A DNA stretch of 64,000 nt, taken from the NCBI GenBank assembly GCA_903831575.1, contig CAIKYB010000040.1, positions 1-64,000 of the forward strand, in the 5' to 3' direction. Positions within the stretch are counted from its first letter, which is position 1, and the number at the start of each line of letters is the position of its first letter. Positions 33,573-58,513 of the stretch are shown piece by piece. The notes beneath the pieces are model-generated. The model was given only the letters and a program-made list of their open reading frames with translations. It was not told the origin of the DNA and did no database searches. Made by a program: the position numbers and the translations under genes. This stretch comes from an uncultured Bacteroidota bacterium (GTDB lineage Bacteria; Bacteroidota; Bacteroidia; Chitinophagales; Chitinophagaceae).

Positions 33573-33644
<72 letters not shown>

Positions 33645-51237: not shown

Positions 51238-52536
51238 TTAAAGACTCAACAGGTAATCTTTCAATTGTGCAAAATCCGCATCCATTGATGTGGCAATTTT
51301 TGGTTTGTTTACTATATCGGCTACTACTGGCGGCAAGGGGATTTCTTTTTTTATTATAGGTTCCACCACATCATAGAACTTAACAGGGTGAGCAGTTTCA
51401 GCAAAAAAACCCTGAAGATGCTGATACTTTTGCAAATATTGATTCAACGCGATATAACCTACAGCGCCATGAGGATCCATGAGATAATCGTGATTTTTTT
51501 CTACCGTTTCAATTGCATTTCTGGTGGAGTCATCATCAATACTTACAGCAGTTAAGACTTCTCTTAATTTATAAATATCATGATCAAACATTTCTACTAT
51601 TCTGATGAAATTACTAGGGTCCCCAACATCCATAGCATTTGAAATCGTAGCCACTGATTGTTGAGCATGGTATTGATTAGACTTCATGAATTTTGGAACC
51701 ACATCATTGGCATTACATGCAGCAATAAAATGGCGAATAGGCAACCCCGTTTTCATCGCTAATAAGCCTGCGCAAATATTTCCAAAGTTTCCACTTGGTA
51801 CGCTGATTACCGGAGGATTTTTTTTATCATGCCATTGTTTATAGGCTAAGAAATAATAGAATTGCTGTGGCAACCACCTTGCAACATTTATTGAATTAGC
51901 AGAAGTTAAAAAAAGTGAAGAGCAAAGTTGTTCATCGGCGAATGCTTGTTTGACCATTTTTTGACAATCATCAAATGTTCCATTGACTTCAATCGCATTG
52001 ATATTTTTACCAAGTGTAGTCAATTGTTTTTCCTGAACGCTACTTACTTTTCCTGATGGATATAATATAACTACCTGCACGCCTTCTACTCCATAAAATC
52101 CATCTGCTACAGCACCGCCTGTATCACCGGATGTGGCAACTAAGACGGTTACTTTTTTGTTGTTATCTTTTACAAAATAGCCCAAACATCTGCTCATAAA
52201 TCTAGCGCCAATATCTTTAAAGGCAAGTGTATTTCCATGAAACATTTCTAATGCATAAACATTAGGACTAACCGAAACAAGTGGAATATTAAAATTTATA
52301 GTTTGAGAAACAATATCAAAAAGTATCTGTTCAGGAATAGCCTCTCCTACATAAGGCCTGATTACTTGGAAAGCAATCTCTTCATTGGAAATGCTTTCAA
52401 TATTATCAATCAAAGATTTGTCTAATAGGGGCAAACGCTCAGGAAAGTACAATCCCTTATCAGGCGCCTGGCCTTTAATAGTGGCTTGTTTGAAATCTAC
52501 ATGAGGAGCTTTTTTATTTAGGCTATAATAGTTCAT
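51238..52536 (-). CDS. thrC: Threonine synthase
   Basis: 432 residues, PLP-dependent. Converts phosphohomoserine to threonine. The PLP Lys lies in GNTLAFKDIGARF near residue 105. SGDTGGAVADGF, TSANSINVARWLPQ and PSGNFGNICAGL (phosphate-binding) match the family. N-terminus YYSLNKKAPHVDFKQATIKGQAPDKGLYFPE is typical. Last gene of thrABC. Confidence 0.96.
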   Translation of the reverse strand: MNYYSLNKKAPHVDFKQATIKGQAPDKGLYFPERLPLLDKSLIDNIESISNEEIAFQVIRPYVGEAIPEQILFDIVSQTINFNIPLVSVSPNVYALEMFHGNTLAFKDIGARFMSRCLGYFVKDNNKKVTVLVATSGDTGGAVADGFYGVEGVQVVILYPSGKVSSVQEKQLTTLGKNINAIEVNGTFDDCQKMVKQAFADEQLCSSLFLTSANSINVARWLPQQFYYFLAYKQWHDKKNPPVISVPSGNFGNICAGLLAMKTGLPIRHFIAACNANDVVPKFMKSNQYHAQQSVATISNAMDVGDPSNFIRIVEMFDHDIYKLREVLTAVSIDDDSTRNAIETVEKNHDYLMDPHGAVGYIALNQYLQKYQHLQGFFAETAHPVKFYDVVEPIIKKEIPLPPVVADIVNKPKIATSMDADFAQLKDYLLSL

Positions 52537-52627: not shown

Positions 52628-53548
52628 TTAAATTACAACCTCTACACCATGCTGGGCAACTGTCGAGATATAAGTCTTGTAATCAATTCCTAATTTATCA
52701 TAAACTGCTTTCATTTCATTTTCAACAAGTATGGCTGTTGATTCGTTTTCACTCAACATAAACAGCGAAGGACCACTGCCGGAAATTCCACCACCGAGAG
52801 CGCCAGCATTCATACAATTATGCTTCACCTCATTAAAGCCAGGAATTAACTTACTTCTCACTGGTTCAACAATAACATCCTGCAATGATCTGCTTATTAA
52901 TTTATAGTCGGCATGTAAAAAACCAGCAACTAATCCCGCAACGTTGGCCCATTGAATAACTGCGCTTTTTAAGAGAATTTCTTTTGGGAGAATTTCTCTG
53001 GCGTAAGAAGTTTTAATTTCTATTTGAGGATGCACGATGGTGATAAATAGCGGAGGCGTTTTCAATTCAATGATATCCAAGGTAGGAGTATCTCTGATTA
53101 ATACTAAACCGCCATAAATACAAGGTGCTAAATTATCTGCGTGTCGGGATCCACTTGCCAAGACTTCCCCTTCCATGGCAAAAGAAATTAATTGTTGTTT
53201 ATTAAAAGGCTTCCCCAATAATTCATTTGCTGCAACTACAATACCAGCAGCACTTGCAGCACTAGACCCTATTCCGCTTCCTGGCTTGATTTTCTTTTCA
53301 ATAATAAGATCAAATCCTTGTTTATAATCTAATGCAGTCATCATCGCCTGAAGTGCGACACCTGCAATATTTTGTTGAGGATCAAGAGGTAAATTATACG
53401 CATCCAAATGTTGAATCCGAATCCCTGTTTCTTCTTTTTTAATCAATTCAATAATATCATAAGGCTCGTTCAAAGCCATTCCTAATATATCAAAACCACA
53501 ACAAAGATTAGACAGCGTTGCAGGAGATTTTACTTTTATAGATTGCAT
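52628..53548 (-). CDS. thrB: Homoserine kinase
   Basis: 306 residues, GHMP kinase family. Phosphorylates homoserine. N-terminal SPATLSNLCCGFDILGMAL, the ATP-binding GSGIGSSAASAAG near 92-104, and C-terminal GALGGGISGSGPSLFML are diagnostic. It starts three bases after the thrA stop codon, so translational coupling is likely. Confidence 0.96.
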   Translation of the reverse strand: MQSIKVKSPATLSNLCCGFDILGMALNEPYDIIELIKKEETGIRIQHLDAYNLPLDPQQNIAGVALQAMMTALDYKQGFDLIIEKKIKPGSGIGSSAASAAGIVVAANELLGKPFNKQQLISFAMEGEVLASGSRHADNLAPCIYGGLVLIRDTPTLDIIELKTPPLFITIVHPQIEIKTSYAREILPKEILLKSAVIQWANVAGLVAGFLHADYKLISRSLQDVIVEPVRSKLIPGFNEVKHNCMNAGALGGGISGSGPSLFMLSENESTAILVENEMKAVYDKLGIDYKTYISTVAQHGVEVVI

Positions 53549-53551
53549 GTA

Positions 53552-56017
53552 TTAAAATTTAGACGCTCTTATAATATCGGCAAAAACGCCACTAGCAGTA
53601 ACTTCTGCTCCTGCACCGGCACCTTTAATTACAAGGGGCTGGTCTTTGTAACGATCTGTGTAAAACAACACTACATTGTCTTTTCCATACAAGTGGTACA
53701 AATCATTTTGCGGATTGATATGCTGCAAACCAACTGCGGCTTTACCATTTTCAAAGCTTGCAACAAATTTCAGAATATTTCCTTTCGCTTGGGCTTCTTC
53801 AAATAGTTTTTTAAAATGGTCTTCATGAAGCAACATCGCAGCATAAAAATCTTCGACTGTTCCTTGCATGCAGGCTTCTGGCATAAAGCTATTGTTAACA
53901 ATACTATCCATTTCGATTTTTTCCCCCGACTCTCTTGCTAAAATCATAATTTTTCTCATCACATCAGTTCCGCCAAGATCGAGTCGTGGATCAGGTTCTG
54001 TGTAACCTTCGTCCTGTGCTTGCTTTACCACTTCAGCAAATTTCTTTTTGCCATCATAATGGTTAAAAACAAAATTCAACGTACCACTCAATACTGCTTC
54101 TATTTTATGAATGCGATCTCCACTATGCATCAAATCATTAATCGTACCAATAATAGGAAGGCCTGCGCCCACATTAGTTTCAAACAAGAAATGTGCATTA
54201 AACTCACGAGATAAATCTTTTAGTTTTTTATAACTGGCATAATTAGACGAGGCGGCAACTTTATTACAAGCAACGACAGCGATACTTTTTTGTAACAATT
54301 TATCGTATACAGCGGCAACGGTATCATTTGCAGTAATATCTACAAATACAGCATTGCGAAGATTGAGGGTATGAATGTTCTCTATAAACTGATGCAAATC
54401 TGCTCTGGCGCCATCATTCAATAAATTTTTCCAGTTATTGATATCGATTCCGGATTCATCAATCAACATTCTGGTGCTGTTGATGACACCTGTCAATCGA
54501 ATATTCAAATGAAGTTTTTCCTGCAAGAAATGGGATTGCTGCTGGAGCTGTGCCAATAATTTTCCGCCCACATTTCCAACACCGGCTAAAAATACATTCA
54601 CTTGTTTGTAGGTTGTTTCAAAAAACTCTTCATGCAAGACATTAATGGTCTTTCTTACATCACTAGTTTGTATAACTGCTGAGATATTTTTTTCGGAAGA
54701 GCCCTGTGCGATTGCTCTGATATTGATACCATTTCTACCCATGGCGCTAAACATTCTTCCGCTCACTCCTGTATGATTGCGCATGTTTTCCCCAACAAGC
54801 GCTACAATAGAAAGTGCTTTTTCGATTTTAAGGGGCTCCACTTTTTGAAGGGCAATTTCATTAGCAAACGCTGCATCTACAGCTTGTGTGGCTTTTTGAG
54901 ATAAATTATCATCAATAGCTACAGTAATAGAATGTTCAGAAGAACTTTGTGTAATTAAAATGACATTTATTTTTTCATTGCTCAAAGATTCAAATAATCT
55001 TTTTGAAAAACCCGGAATGCCTATCATACCACTACCCTCAAGCGTTAGCAGACAGATATTGTTGATACTGGAAATACCCCTTACGATATTTTGGGATTCG
55101 GTTTTAGCATGTGGGAATGATTGCAAATCGTTTGAAATCACTGTGCCATTATCTTCTGGAGCAAAAGTGTTTTTGATCCAAACAGGAATATTCTTACTCA
55201 TTACTGGCTGAATAGTAGGCGGATAAATAACTTTGGCGCCAAAATGGGAAAGTTCCATCGCCTCCTGGTAAGAAATCTGTGGGATAATTTTGGCATTATT
55301 GCTCAATCTTGGATCGGCCGTCATCATTCCACTTACATCTGTCCATATTTCTAAATTGTTTGCATTTATAGCAGCTGCAATAATGGCTGCAGTGTAATCT
55401 GACCCGCCTCTACCAAGGGTTGTAGTAATACCATTTTTATCAGCAGCAATAAACCCAGGAAATAAATAAAGTTCCTTTCTGGTGGATTTTATATACTCTT
55501 TAATTTTTTCATTCGTAGTTGAAAAATCAACTGCAGCAGATCCGAAGGAAGAATTGGTAACAATAACGTCTCTTGAATCTTTCCAGGTGGCTTCAATTCC
55601 TTTATCAAGAAAGGCCGCTGCGATAATTTGAGAAGATAATTTTTCGCCATAGCTGGCTATTTTATCTTTTGATCTTAATGTCAATTCTCCGAGCATAAAC
55701 AATCCATCACAAAGATTGCTCATCTCCGTTGACGCCTTGTCTAACATTTGTAAAAGTTTCAATTGATTAGCTTCTTTTATCAGATTTGTGATACAGTCTT
55801 TATGTCGCTTTTCAATTAAATTTAATTTTTCGATATAAGATTCATTGCCTTCGGCAGCCAATGTCGCTGCATCTAACAATAAATCTGTAACCCCACCCAA
55901 GGCAGATACGACTACAATTGCGGGTTCTTTTTTGATGGCATTTGCAATAATATCGATTACTTTTTTGATGTTCTCTGCGTTTGCTACCGATGTGCCACCG
56001 AATTTTAATACTTGCAT
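53552..56017 (-). CDS. thrA: Bifunctional aspartokinase / homoserine dehydrogenase
   Basis: 821 residues from ATG 56017, which gives the standard start MQVLKFGGTSVANAENIKK. A longer reading to 56104 adds 29 residues unlike the family and is rejected. The aspartokinase part covers about 1-290 (GRGGSDYTAAIIAAAI, WTDVSGMMTADPR). ACT regulatory domains cover about 300-460. The homoserine dehydrogenase part runs from about 465 to the end (FLAGVGNVGGKLL; VACNKVAAS; FETNVGAGLPIIGTINDL; EGYTEPDPRLDLGGTDVMRK). It catalyses the first and third steps toward threonine. It leads the operon thrABC behind a threonine-rich leader frame. Confidence 0.96.
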   Translation of the reverse strand: MQVLKFGGTSVANAENIKKVIDIIANAIKKEPAIVVVSALGGVTDLLLDAATLAAEGNESYIEKLNLIEKRHKDCITNLIKEANQLKLLQMLDKASTEMSNLCDGLFMLGELTLRSKDKIASYGEKLSSQIIAAAFLDKGIEATWKDSRDVIVTNSSFGSAAVDFSTTNEKIKEYIKSTRKELYLFPGFIAADKNGITTTLGRGGSDYTAAIIAAAINANNLEIWTDVSGMMTADPRLSNNAKIIPQISYQEAMELSHFGAKVIYPPTIQPVMSKNIPVWIKNTFAPEDNGTVISNDLQSFPHAKTESQNIVRGISSINNICLLTLEGSGMIGIPGFSKRLFESLSNEKINVILITQSSSEHSITVAIDDNLSQKATQAVDAAFANEIALQKVEPLKIEKALSIVALVGENMRNHTGVSGRMFSAMGRNGINIRAIAQGSSEKNISAVIQTSDVRKTINVLHEEFFETTYKQVNVFLAGVGNVGGKLLAQLQQQSHFLQEKLHLNIRLTGVINSTRMLIDESGIDINNWKNLLNDGARADLHQFIENIHTLNLRNAVFVDITANDTVAAVYDKLLQKSIAVVACNKVAASSNYASYKKLKDLSREFNAHFLFETNVGAGLPIIGTINDLMHSGDRIHKIEAVLSGTLNFVFNHYDGKKKFAEVVKQAQDEGYTEPDPRLDLGGTDVMRKIMILARESGEKIEMDSIVNNSFMPEACMQGTVEDFYAAMLLHEDHFKKLFEEAQAKGNILKFVASFENGKAAVGLQHINPQNDLYHLYGKDNVVLFYTDRYKDQPLVIKGAGAGAEVTASGVFADIIRASKF

Positions 56018-56099
56018 AAATCTTACTTTATAAACTGGAAATAATTGGAATGTCTTTGATTTTTCTTCAGCGTGATGCCCTTTGGATAATATGGTAATG

Positions 56100-56119
56100 T
56101 ACAACCCTAGCGGGTTGTA
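56100..56119 (-). promoter_or_regulatory. Hairpin at the end of the putative thr leader peptide
   Basis: On the minus strand, TACAACCC and GGGTTGTA form a perfect 8-pair stem around loop GCTA. The left arm contains the last Thr codons of the leader frame, and its TAG stop starts in the loop. A ribosome halted on those Thr codons would melt it. There is no U run behind it, so the mode of control is unclear. Confidence 0.6.
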
Positions 56120-56184
56120 GTAACTGTTGTAACTACCGTATTGGTTACATTATAGCAGATGATATTACGGAGATTCTTATTCAT
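56107..56184 (-). CDS. Putative thr operon leader peptide (25 residues)
   Basis: An ATG at 56184 opens a 25-codon frame, MNKNLRNIICYNVTN followed by TVVTTVTTTR and a TAG stop. Seven of 25 residues are Thr, six of them in the last ten; there are also two Ile in a row and four Val. It ends 89 bases before thrA, and the stop overlaps a perfect hairpin. This is the layout of amino-acid attenuator leaders such as E. coli thrL, whose sequence is likewise rich in Thr and Ile. A weak ATTG/TATCTTTA promoter-like pair lies just before its ATG. Expression and function are inferred. Confidence 0.65.
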   Translation of the reverse strand: MNKNLRNIICYNVTNTVVTTVTTTR

Positions 56185-56503
56185 TTGGATTTTAAAGATA
56201 GACGTAATCTTTTAAAAATCCAATATTTGACGTTGAATTATTAAAAACAAACTCTCTATAAACATAAATGTCAATTTATTGATCTAGAAAAAGATAACTC
56301 AAATAACTATGGTCAATTCTGAATTATTATTTAATTTCAAGAGGCAAAACAGCATATCACTACTTTTCAATAGTAAAAAACGATTTTTATACCTAGGTTT
56401 ACTGATCAATCTTTTAAGGTATTAGTCAAAGCTGAAGTGCCTATTCAAACGCTTAAAAGTTCGGCAAACGATAATAAAGTTTTAAAAGTAATATGGAGCG
56501 ATA
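56185..56503. other. Divergent regulatory gap between thr leader and kinase operon
   Basis: About 320 AT-rich bases with no convincing gene. It must hold promoters for both directions. Only a weak -7-like TATCTTTA (minus strand, about 56199-56192) was noted; nothing clear was seen for the kinase gene. Confidence 0.5.
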
Positions 56504-58513
56504 ATGAAGAATAATAATAAGGGGCACTTTACATTCAATGTAGCTGAATTCAATAAGATTTTTCCGTTTTTTATTCTTATCGACGAAAGTCTGAATATAA
56601 TTGATAGTGGGATTTCTTTGAAACAAGTCCTTCCTGATCCTATAGGAAAAGCATTTCATTCTTTTTTTACATGCCATCCCCGACAACCTGACAACATTGA
56701 CTTTGCTAGCCTTCGTCTACTTTGTTCGGAAATGTTAATTCTTGAGACATTGCATCACAAAAAAATGAAATTCAGAGGCCAACTTGAATTGGTCAATGAC
56801 AATACAAACTTGCTTTTTTTAGGAGCTCCATGGTTTGATTCAACTAAAGAATTTAATGCGTCCGGCCTTAAATCAAAAGATTATGCCCCTTATAATCCGC
56901 ATCTAGAATTATTACATATTCTTGATACAAAAGAAAATGTAAATGAAGAATTAAAGGCTCTTCTTCAAACCTTAACGAATCAAAAAACAGAATTACTGAA
57001 CGCGAATAATCAAATTCAGGACATAAAAACAGCTCTTGAAGAGAGTAATCAACGGTATGAATTTGTGAACAAAGCTACTTCTGAAGCAATAATAGACTGG
57101 AATATACAAACCGGAGAAGTACATTTCGGAGATGCCTTTCAAAAGTTATTTGGATATGAGATAACATCAAACAAGGATCATATCAGCTCTTTTGAACAAA
57201 AAATTCACCCTGATGATTTGAAAAGAATTTCAAATAGTATCATAGAGATAATTGACTCAACAAGAACACATTGGTCACAGGAATATAGGTACTTAAAATC
57301 GGACGGCACTTACGCATATGTTTCAGGCAATGCATTTATTCTGAGGGATGATGAGGGAAAAGCAATGAGAATCGTTGGAGCCATCAGAGATACTACCGAG
57401 AAGAAACTGGCGGAACAAGAAATGGCAAATCAAAAGAAATTCAATGAAGATATTTTGAATAATATCCCGACTGATATAGCCGTATTTGCCCCAAACCATA
57501 ATTATCTTTTTGTTAATCCACATGGAATTAAAAATGATGAAATCAGAGAATGGATTATTAACAAAAATGATTTTGATTATACAAAAATGAGAGGAATTGA
57601 TGATAGTACAGCAAAAAAAAGATGGGAACTTTTTGAAGAAGCAGTTGAAAAAAAAGAAAAGGTAGTGTGGATGGATGAGCATCCTACAAAAGAAGGAAAT
57701 GTAAATTATATTTTGAGACATTTCTATCCTTATTTCGAAAAAAATAAACTCAAATTTGTCATTGGGTATGGCTTAGACATTACAGAAAGAAAGAAAATAG
57801 AACTCAAATTAAATGATGCTTTAGATTCAGTAAAAAAAACAAATGATGAATTAGAGCAGTTTGCTTATGTAGCATCTCATGATTTACAAGAGCCCTTGAG
57901 AATGGTAACAGGCTTTCTCACGCAATTAGAAAAAAAATATGGAGATGCACTAGATGAGAAAGCTAAAGAATATATTTATTATGCCGTTGATGGTGCAAAG
58001 CGAATGCGCCAAATTATTTTAGATCTTCTTGAGTATTCAAGAGTAGGCAAAACTGACGAGAACGTAAAAGATATTAATCTAAATGACCTTGTCAAAGAAA
58101 TTGAAGTTTTACATAGCAAGCAGATTAAGGAATTACACGCAGAGATTCTTTATCAAAATTTGCCTATCATAACTGCTCACAAAACTCCAATAAGACAAGT
58201 CTTTCAAAATCTAATTAGCAATAGTTTGAAATACAACAAAGTTGGGGTACCGCCACACATAGAAATTCATGCTAATGAAAAAGGGGATTTCTGGGAATTT
58301 AGTATCTCTGATAATGGAATTGGAATCAATCAGGAATTTTTTGAGAAAATATTCATTATCTTTCAACGTTTACACAACAGAGATAAGTTCAATGGAACAG
58401 GCATTGGACTCGCTTTAACAAAAAAAATATTAGAAAATATAGGGGGCGAAATTAGGGTAACATCAAAAGAAAATGAAGGGAGTACTTTTCATTTCACCAT
58501 TCCAAAAAAATAA
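56504..58513 (+). CDS. Soluble hybrid-free histidine kinase with HNOBA-like and PAS sensor domains
   Basis: 669 residues, no signal peptide or membrane helix. Residues about 8-140 resemble the HNOBA domain that accompanies haem-NO-binding proteins (FNKIFPFFILIDESLNIIDSGISL, GKAFHSFFTCHPRQP, KFRGQLELV, LLFLGAPWFDSTKEFNASGLKSKDY). A coiled signalling helix (about 145-185) leads to a PAS_3-type domain (about 190-300) and a second PAS (about 310-435). The HisKA domain has phospho-acceptor His 459 in ASHDLQEPLR. HATPase_c follows with DNGIGI and GTGIGLALTKKI. It heads a three-gene set with two receiver-containing proteins, so it probably phosphorylates the next gene product. No H-NOX gene is visible in the window. 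Confidence 0.9.
   Translation: MKNNNKGHFTFNVAEFNKIFPFFILIDESLNIIDSGISLKQVLPDPIGKAFHSFFTCHPRQPDNIDFASLRLLCSEMLILETLHHKKMKFRGQLELVNDNTNLLFLGAPWFDSTKEFNASGLKSKDYAPYNPHLELLHILDTKENVNEELKALLQTLTNQKTELLNANNQIQDIKTALEESNQRYEFVNKATSEAIIDWNIQTGEVHFGDAFQKLFGYEITSNKDHISSFEQKIHPDDLKRISNSIIEIIDSTRTHWSQEYRYLKSDGTYAYVSGNAFILRDDEGKAMRIVGAIRDTTEKKLAEQEMANQKKFNEDILNNIPTDIAVFAPNHNYLFVNPHGIKNDEIREWIINKNDFDYTKMRGIDDSTAKKRWELFEEAVEKKEKVVWMDEHPTKEGNVNYILRHFYPYFEKNKLKFVIGYGLDITERKKIELKLNDALDSVKKTNDELEQFAYVASHDLQEPLRMVTGFLTQLEKKYGDALDEKAKEYIYYAVDGAKRMRQIILDLLEYSRVGKTDENVKDINLNDLVKEIEVLHSKQIKELHAEILYQNLPIITAHKTPIRQVFQNLISNSLKYNKVGVPPHIEIHANEKGDFWEFSISDNGIGINQEFFEKIFIIFQRLHNRDKFNGTGIGLALTKKILENIGGEIRVTSKENEGSTFHFTIPKK

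Follow-up and report, generated by a model that had tools for sequence, protein, structure and literature searches.

A candidate threonine-sensing attenuator before thrABC in Chitinophagaceae and other families of Bacteroidota

Attenuation at a leader peptide, and its use in the control of thr, are already known. The thr operon case is well known from gamma-proteobacteria, and the attenuator of E. coli thr is the Rfam family Thr_leader (RF00506). Here we analyzed the region before thrABC in a 64,000-nucleotide (nt) stretch of DNA from an uncultured bacterium of the Chitinophagaceae (Bacteroidota; contig CAIKYB010000040.1, positions 1 to 64,000; the whole stretch is hereafter the window), which carries a threonine-rich leader frame and a hairpin, designated P1. 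The locus resembles E. coli thr, as the latter is generally described, in its Thr/Ile-rich leader peptide before thrA and in a hairpin that starts in the last control codons and includes the stop codon; in some relatives the stop lies behind P1 rather than in its loop. In contrast to E. coli thr, the window lacks a U-tailed terminator and its family has few, no covarying 2:3 antiterminator was found, and a conserved CATATYA block is present instead. We consider it likely, on the comparison of related sequences, that the region is a cis-acting, ribosome-mediated attenuator of thrABC that senses charged tRNA-Thr and probably also charged tRNA-Ile.

Bacteroid-trp (RF01692), which is listed in PMC2864571, is likewise an amino acid leader attenuator of Bacteroidota. 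It differs in that 12/12 loci read (of 20 matches) have a WWW leader, a terminator hairpin rich in G and C, and four or more T in a row; these 12 leaders (L253-L264) all belong to f16 (f-numbers are family labels; f1 is the family of the window, whose named members are Chitinophagaceae). Its covariance model matched neither the window nor its own genome, nor the 7 other f1 genomes listed. P1 and CATAT also precede thrA in 10 of these 12 genomes, the exceptions being L157 and the doubtful L143. Since the trp leaders of f16 have GC-rich terminators, those genomes do not generally lack such terminators, although they are missing before thr.

A transcriptome study of Flavobacterium psychrophilum, from the same phylum, reported clues to leader peptides before amino acid operons, naming pheA and hisG, and proposed the same kind of control; the main text does not name threonine or thrA (PMC9723704). 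The first-pass annotation of the window had not known of a described case in this group. This stands for thr within the literature searched, where no thr attenuator was found described for Bacteroidota (the surveys Lopatovskaya 2010 and Lyubetsky 2007, cited in PMC4833913, could include such a prediction), but not for attenuation leaders at large, for which RF01692 and a general remark in PMC9723704 are precedents. Further, no Rfam family matched the window leader or those of 8 relatives at the gathering cut-off, where only sub-threshold matches occurred, and NCBIfam gave no match for five leader peptides.

Leader frame, P1 hairpin and conserved blocks before thrA

The operon lies on the minus strand in the order thrA-thrB-thrC, from 56017 down to 51238 (Table 1); its third gene we take to be thrC from its sequence. 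The start of thrA was placed at the ATG at 56017, and the matching residue is an ATG in 93/98 relatives; the ThrA frame stays open further 5', to a TTG at 56104. The leader frame runs from an ATG at 56184 to a TAG at 56109-56107 and encodes MNKNLRNIICYNVTNTVVTTVTTTR, with 7 Thr (6 of them within the last 10 codons), Ile-Ile and 4 Val, and its stop is 89 nt from the thrA ATG. The left arm of P1, TACAACCC (56119-56112), is built from the last three Thr codons; the TAG begins inside the loop, GCTA, and the right arm, GGGTTGTA (56107-56100), completes 8 perfect pairs. The first-pass annotation had reported this frame, its residue counts, the distance to thrA, the 8-pair hairpin and the stop in the loop, and all of these numbers were confirmed from the sequence.

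Dinucleotide shuffling of the window's upstream region produced, in 0/2000 cases, an open reading frame (ORF) whose last 14 codons include at least 7 Thr. When the 14 codons before the last were compared with frame +1 in 110 leaders, Thr made up 44.6% against 1.0% (the loci having been selected on Thr) and Ile 14.1% against 1.9%. All four Thr codons were used (239/228/159/61), and the run is therefore not a simple repeat. Substitutions at codon positions 1, 2 and 3 numbered 47, 55 and 95 in 44 related, non-independent pairs. Thus, the leader peptide looks translated. It mostly ends in R, L or P, a choice that the sequence of the hairpin seems to dictate.

In 84/110 leaders the stop is surrounded by a stem with 5 or more pairs, at least 3 of them G-C, compared with 702/2200 shuffles. 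The arms of P1 preferred their own partner over swapped ones (57 loci, z -6.6, reached in 0/1000 permutations). When P1 was examined on the MAFFT alignment A1 (49 rows; L104 and L111 excluded), there were 8 cells with double-sided changes against 2.4 expected (0/500 shuffles), the covariation score was reached in 3/500 shuffles, and 88% of the cells were paired, whereas no slid version paired more than 54%. One compensatory change converts ACAACCC/GGGTTGT to ACAATCC/GGATTGT. The first-pass annotation had proposed aligning the upstream regions of thrA orthologues, and the alignment agreed with its expectation: the Thr run was kept, the N-terminal part of the leader varied, and the hairpin had compensatory changes. 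Folding of the 242-nt leader gave P1 in both the minimum free energy and the centroid structure, although the region as a whole folded only slightly better than shuffles (z -1.3; 24/200 at least as good).

Behind P1 lie a T-rich stretch and CATATYAYC, a block which is absent from the first-pass annotation and newly recognised here. Its ATA is invariant in 49/49 rows of A1; L135 departs from the block consensus with CATGATATTA. The spacer between P1 and the block measured 6-11 nt in 60/62 f1 loci having both, and no pairing partner for the block was found. Two G at +13/+14 of the CATAT anchor were kept at 94% and 96% (50 loci). The hairpin P2 that these could form was barely above chance (32/48 loci against 1072/2400 shuffles) and had no double-sided changes. 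Beyond CATAT, conservation reached background about 20 nt on and, an A-rich spot excepted, stayed there to thrA (50 loci; the profile was anchored on the CATAT motif, so that the anchor itself does not count).

The candidate -7 box TATCTTTA and the TTG fit the Bacteroidota promoter consensus TTTG / TAnnTTTG as quoted in PMC7366714, and the predicted transcript start would lie just 5' of the leader ATG. Among leader loci of f1, f15, f16 and Chryseobacterium, 79/87 have a TAnnTTWG or TATCTT box between -190 and -50 relative to the stop, compared with 449/1740 mononucleotide shuffles. Further, [CA]ATATYA occurred 30-125 nt 5' of the stop in 26/50 loci of the f1 family against 218/2500 shuffles, and 22 of these 26 copies were in the leader frame.

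Table 1. Features of the thrABC locus and further features of the window
Feature	Position in window	Strand	Basis
Thr-rich leader ORF, 25 codons + TAG	56107..56184	-	sequence, relatives, shuffles
P1 hairpin TACAACCC-GCTA-GGGTTGTA	56100..56119	-	sequence, folding, covariation
CATATTATCC, conserved CATATYA block, 6 nt 3' of P1	56084..56093	-	MAFFT alignment A1
GGGCatcacGCTG, conserved GG(G), possible 3-4 pair hairpin P2	56068..56080	-	loci anchored on CATAT
AATATCA, first ATATYA copy, within leader frame	56160..56166	-	motif count
Candidate -7 box TATCTTTA, TAnnTTTG type	56193..56200	-	sequence
Candidate -33 element TTG, 20 nt 5' of -7 box	56221..56223	-	sequence; inference
thrA, bifunctional aspartokinase/homoserine dehydrogenase	53552..56017	-	Pfam: aspartokinase, ACT, homoserine dehydrogenase domains
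thrB, homoserine kinase (GHMP)	52628..53548	-	Pfam GHMP kinase domains; name from domains and context
thrC (presumed), threonine synthase	51238..52536	-	ORF
TPP riboswitch RF00059, 58 bits	33744-33839	+	
tRNA	33573-33644	-	

Distribution of the leader and specificity of the covariance model

The thrA loci were drawn from named contigs (best 80 of 141) and whole genomes, with 60 stretches hand-picked among the matches listed. Thirteen of the 111 loci of a first set were dropped because they were partial or held only an aspartokinase, and the ThrA start was placed in the other 98. An ORF was counted as a leader when it ends 40-200 nt 5' of thrA and 4 or more of its last 14 codons are Thr, and 71/98 loci had one. 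When the full set was dereplicated to 181 loci, a Thr-rich frame shortly before thrA was found in 110, compared with 29/905 shuffled upstream regions. The frame is thus not due to chance, and related genomes do carry frame and hairpin, whose absence from them the first-pass annotation had named as refuting its proposal. The other refuting result that it named, a thrA transcript start downstream of 56107, did not appear either; the candidate promoter box would place the start before the leader.

By family, the leader was present in 65/86 loci of f1, 19/23 of f16, 7/7 of Hymenobacter, 5/5 of f19, 3/4 of f14, 2/2 of f15, 1/2 of f20, 1/1 of Chryseobacterium, 1/2 of f22 and 6/13 of f35. It was found in 0/36 further loci, of which 27 belong to f13, f21, f24, f26-f29, f33, f40, f46 and f54; the other nine comprise five f35 loci listed apart (with which f35 becomes 6/18), three further loci from this order and a divergent genome of f1. 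A ThrA tree (FastTree, 121 rows) implied 16 changes of leader state, 14 of them forced by well-supported branches and several close to the window, as repeated losses would give.

The same arrangement recurs in f15, f16 and f35: the Thr run comes first, then P1, with its loop or the sequence just behind it containing the stop, and then CATAT. The Thr leaders of Hymenobacter and f14 likewise end shortly before thrA; they differ in having strong U-tailed terminators and in that no CATATYA block was seen in them by eye. Such terminators, at a free energy (dG) of -16 to -28, lie between leader and thrA in 7/7 leader loci of Hymenobacter, 1/1 of f20 and 3/3 of f14, and the right arm of P1 in Hymenobacter has, by eye, a complementary antiterminator partner. 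Textbook terminator attenuation in these three families supports a sensing role of the leader in the others. Family f19 matches neither architecture and represents a third, unclassified one; its Thr-rich leaders (L188-L191, L220) end in ..TTTTG or ..TITG, with no strong terminator and mostly no obvious CATAT.

Some loci deserve separate mention. L037, titled as a Streptomyces griseus metagenome-assembled genome, has a ThrA that is 76% identical and is placed by the tree in Chitinophagaceae; the entry is mislabelled. Four Sediminibacterium-like loci (L069, L080, L086, L093) have thrA directly behind another gene, whose C-terminus presumably resembles threonine dehydratase (ilvA-like), and no leader or element was found within 3 kb upstream of that gene.

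The covariance model R1 gave a single match at E<=10 in the window's own genome, at the thr leader (150/1191 candidates scored), and no other operon there was found with it. Among 392 Bacteroidota genomes, searched with filters that lose weak matches, it matched 20, once each; 19 of these matches lay directly before thrA, at least 3 of them being training sequences (the window, L050, L064), and only that in L131 (E 0.07) lay elsewhere. R1 recovered 76/80 element-bearing loci at E<=1, of which 49 were training rows, missing L111, L139, L140 and L163. A contrast set of 32 sources, corresponding to 29 distinct loci and all below the Thr threshold except L143, yielded a strong match in L059, whose Thr run is borderline, and a match at chance level (L105, E 0.99); it also detected degraded copies at two loci, L044 and L003/L033 (two entries for the same locus). 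Thus, element and Thr run nearly always co-occur. We also looked for the element elsewhere with a 23-base pattern (3 mismatches, 20 relatives), which matched 61 times against 24 for its reversed form; 9/10 non-thr matches inspected lay within open frames of 221-640 codons, so that we take the excess to be mostly coding sequence, and this search was discarded.

Read-out of the leader and rival explanations

The proposal of ribosome-mediated attenuation by Thr, and perhaps Ile, which the first-pass annotation had put forward, is well supported by the shuffles, the covariation, R1 and the enrichment of Ile. The comparison gives a Thr/Ile run leading into P1, a stop in or just behind P1, and CATATYA at a near-fixed distance, all directly before thrA. 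P1 would be left in one state by a ribosome stalled on the Thr codons and in another by a ribosome that reaches the stop, and the state of P1 would decide how RNA polymerase proceeds into thrA. The read-out in Hymenobacter and f14 would be a classic terminator switch. Control of elongation appears most likely in the window's family, where P1 and the T-rich CATATYA may together form a hairpin-assisted pause; as a guess, factor-dependent termination, for example by Rho, might follow the pause when threonine is plentiful. The window's own genome encodes rho. Measured from P1, the final T of CATAT is 11 nt away in the window and about 14-15 nt away in f16 (spacer mostly 9-10). Class I pauses have the same hairpin distance as the window's 11 nt, and a class I-like geometry at CATAT is a speculation. 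Rho sites were also sought by scoring the excess of C over G in the 50 nt that precede thrA, a test that did not discriminate: the bias was higher in f1 with leader than without (p 0.045), equal in f15/16/35 (p 0.86), and the same in leader loci as in terminator-bearing loci (p 0.91). More tentatively, and less likely than not, a terminator-less attenuator may be at work, in which a single hairpin set by the ribosome would act on RNA polymerase via CATATYA as a pause or factor-loading site, the copy in the leader would aid ribosome loading, and the arrangement would be ancient in several Bacteroidota families and distinct from the trp switch of f16.

Several results weigh against attenuation as set out here. 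The Thr run falls below the threshold in 21/86 f1 loci, close relatives of the window among them, and some close relatives retain P1 after its loss. Further, five close relatives (L034, L035, L037, L038, L052) no longer have the stop inside the P1 loop. The window has no terminator, the U-tailed type before the first gene being absent, and no covarying alternative helix was found in f1 (580 tests over 50 loci, with z 3.3 at best); given these two negatives, the on/off step is a hypothesis. Two of the five covariation measures for P1 were within shuffles, namely doubly changed pairs (311/500 as high) and pair types (462/500), and the slid controls -1 (11) and -2 (13) exceeded the 8 double-sided cells of P1; these controls paired just 54% and 37% of cells compared with 88% for P1.

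We observed by eye a P1-like hairpin without the Thr run in L003/L033, L004/L036, L044 and L045, of which R1 matched L003/L033 and L044 only. Either the sensor was lost ahead of the hairpin, or P1 has a second role. The loop stop of the five relatives in which it has moved is now the sense codon CAG; the frame enters or crosses the right arm, and the hairpin is kept.

The search for alternative helices, by a segment-by-segment duplex test and a scan of 580 windows, singled out P1 only. No covarying partner of the right arm, as for a 2:3 antiterminator, was found in the family, in a test that an invariant helix would escape. Weaker duplex signals (z -2 to -3.3; among them U1-U3, U0-P2 and U0-U1) were set aside, as shared base composition can produce them. 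Three pairings drawn by eye were not established across the family either: 5' AGTGGTA with the Thr codons (TACCACT), the P1 loop with the right arm of P2, and, in f15/f16, the right arm of P1 with the stretch before the T run.

The absence of a U-tailed terminator, as noted in the first pass, holds for the window, where a scan of 55500-56700 gave no terminator-like site, and for most of f1, where 52/65 leader loci had no terminator-like structure (dG <= -3) in a scan that had no shuffled control. An ordinary intrinsic terminator, formed by a small GGGC...GCTG hairpin with a U-tail or by P1 itself, is nevertheless suggested by the other 13 of the 65, some of which are P1 itself, standing before T-rich sequence in L016, L075 and L102, and by T-rich sequence after P2 (at least 4 T of 6) in 16/47 relatives. 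A T5 run also lies within 45 nt of CATAT in 17/20 loci of f15, f16 and Chryseobacterium, behind mostly weak AU-rich hairpins at best, and a weak intrinsic terminator is possible there. The window itself, however, has AAGAAAA after P2; T5 occurs in just 10/62 f1 and 0/6 f35 loci, P2 is barely above chance and no covarying antiterminator was found, all of which makes this explanation unlikely for the window. We further observed in f16 (L140-L152) that the T run behind CATATAATCC often follows AU-rich inverted repeats, such as ATATAAT..ATTATAT-TTTTTT in L147 and L152; the CATAT block may there form the left arm of a weak terminator.

Three other explanations appear more doubtful still. Translational attenuation, in which P1 or its melting governs ribosome access to the thrA start, would suit the lack of a terminator in the window, the few in its family and a leader stop so close to thrA; the first-pass annotation had raised it as one of two routes. 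Folding predictions for 50 loci, however, gave no support, since the mean unpaired probability of the thrA start was practically the same for free P1 (0.595) as for a stop occupied by a ribosome (0.596), with 0/50 loci shifting by more than 0.1, and the 45 nt before thrA hold no conserved motif apart from an A-rich spot near -11. It is about as improbable that P1 and CATATYA are an RNA signal for a protein or a small RNA, with the Thr run one input or incidental. The survival of P1 without the Thr run in L003/L033 and L044 speaks for such a signal, as do the conservation of CATATYA with no partner found and its recurrence inside the leader; the near-constant company of Thr run and element and the codon-position constraint in the leader speak against it. 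We likewise give little credence to the window copy being a decaying relic of a regulated ancestor, to which the 16 changes of leader state (14 forced), many in the window's own clade, might point. P1 is perfect over its 8 pairs, CATATTATCC and GGGC are intact, the R1 score of 61.6 bits is inside the family range (the window being a training row), and only 14/71 leader loci surpass the window's count of 7 Thr among the last 14 codons (the sister L032 has 8). Attenuation through the ribosome on the Thr run remains the reading we favor.

Other features of the window and implications

The window also holds a TPP riboswitch and a tRNA (Table 1). No match to hisG was found in the window's own genome, which is 99% complete, and histidine auxotrophy is possible. 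In Hymenobacter L098, both strands of 295-496 resemble the Rfam family AaHKsRNA41, with sub-threshold scores of 72 and 64 bits; this is unrelated to the thr leader.

The present analysis would extend attenuation of the thr operon to several families of Bacteroidota; it supplies a covariance model, and the distribution follows a phylogenetic pattern that is clear. Two architectures stand side by side, the terminator type of Hymenobacter and f14, and of trp in f16, and the CATATYA type without a strong terminator. The latter raises the question of how, given the unusual promoters and translation initiation of this phylum, the ribosome may signal to RNA polymerase.

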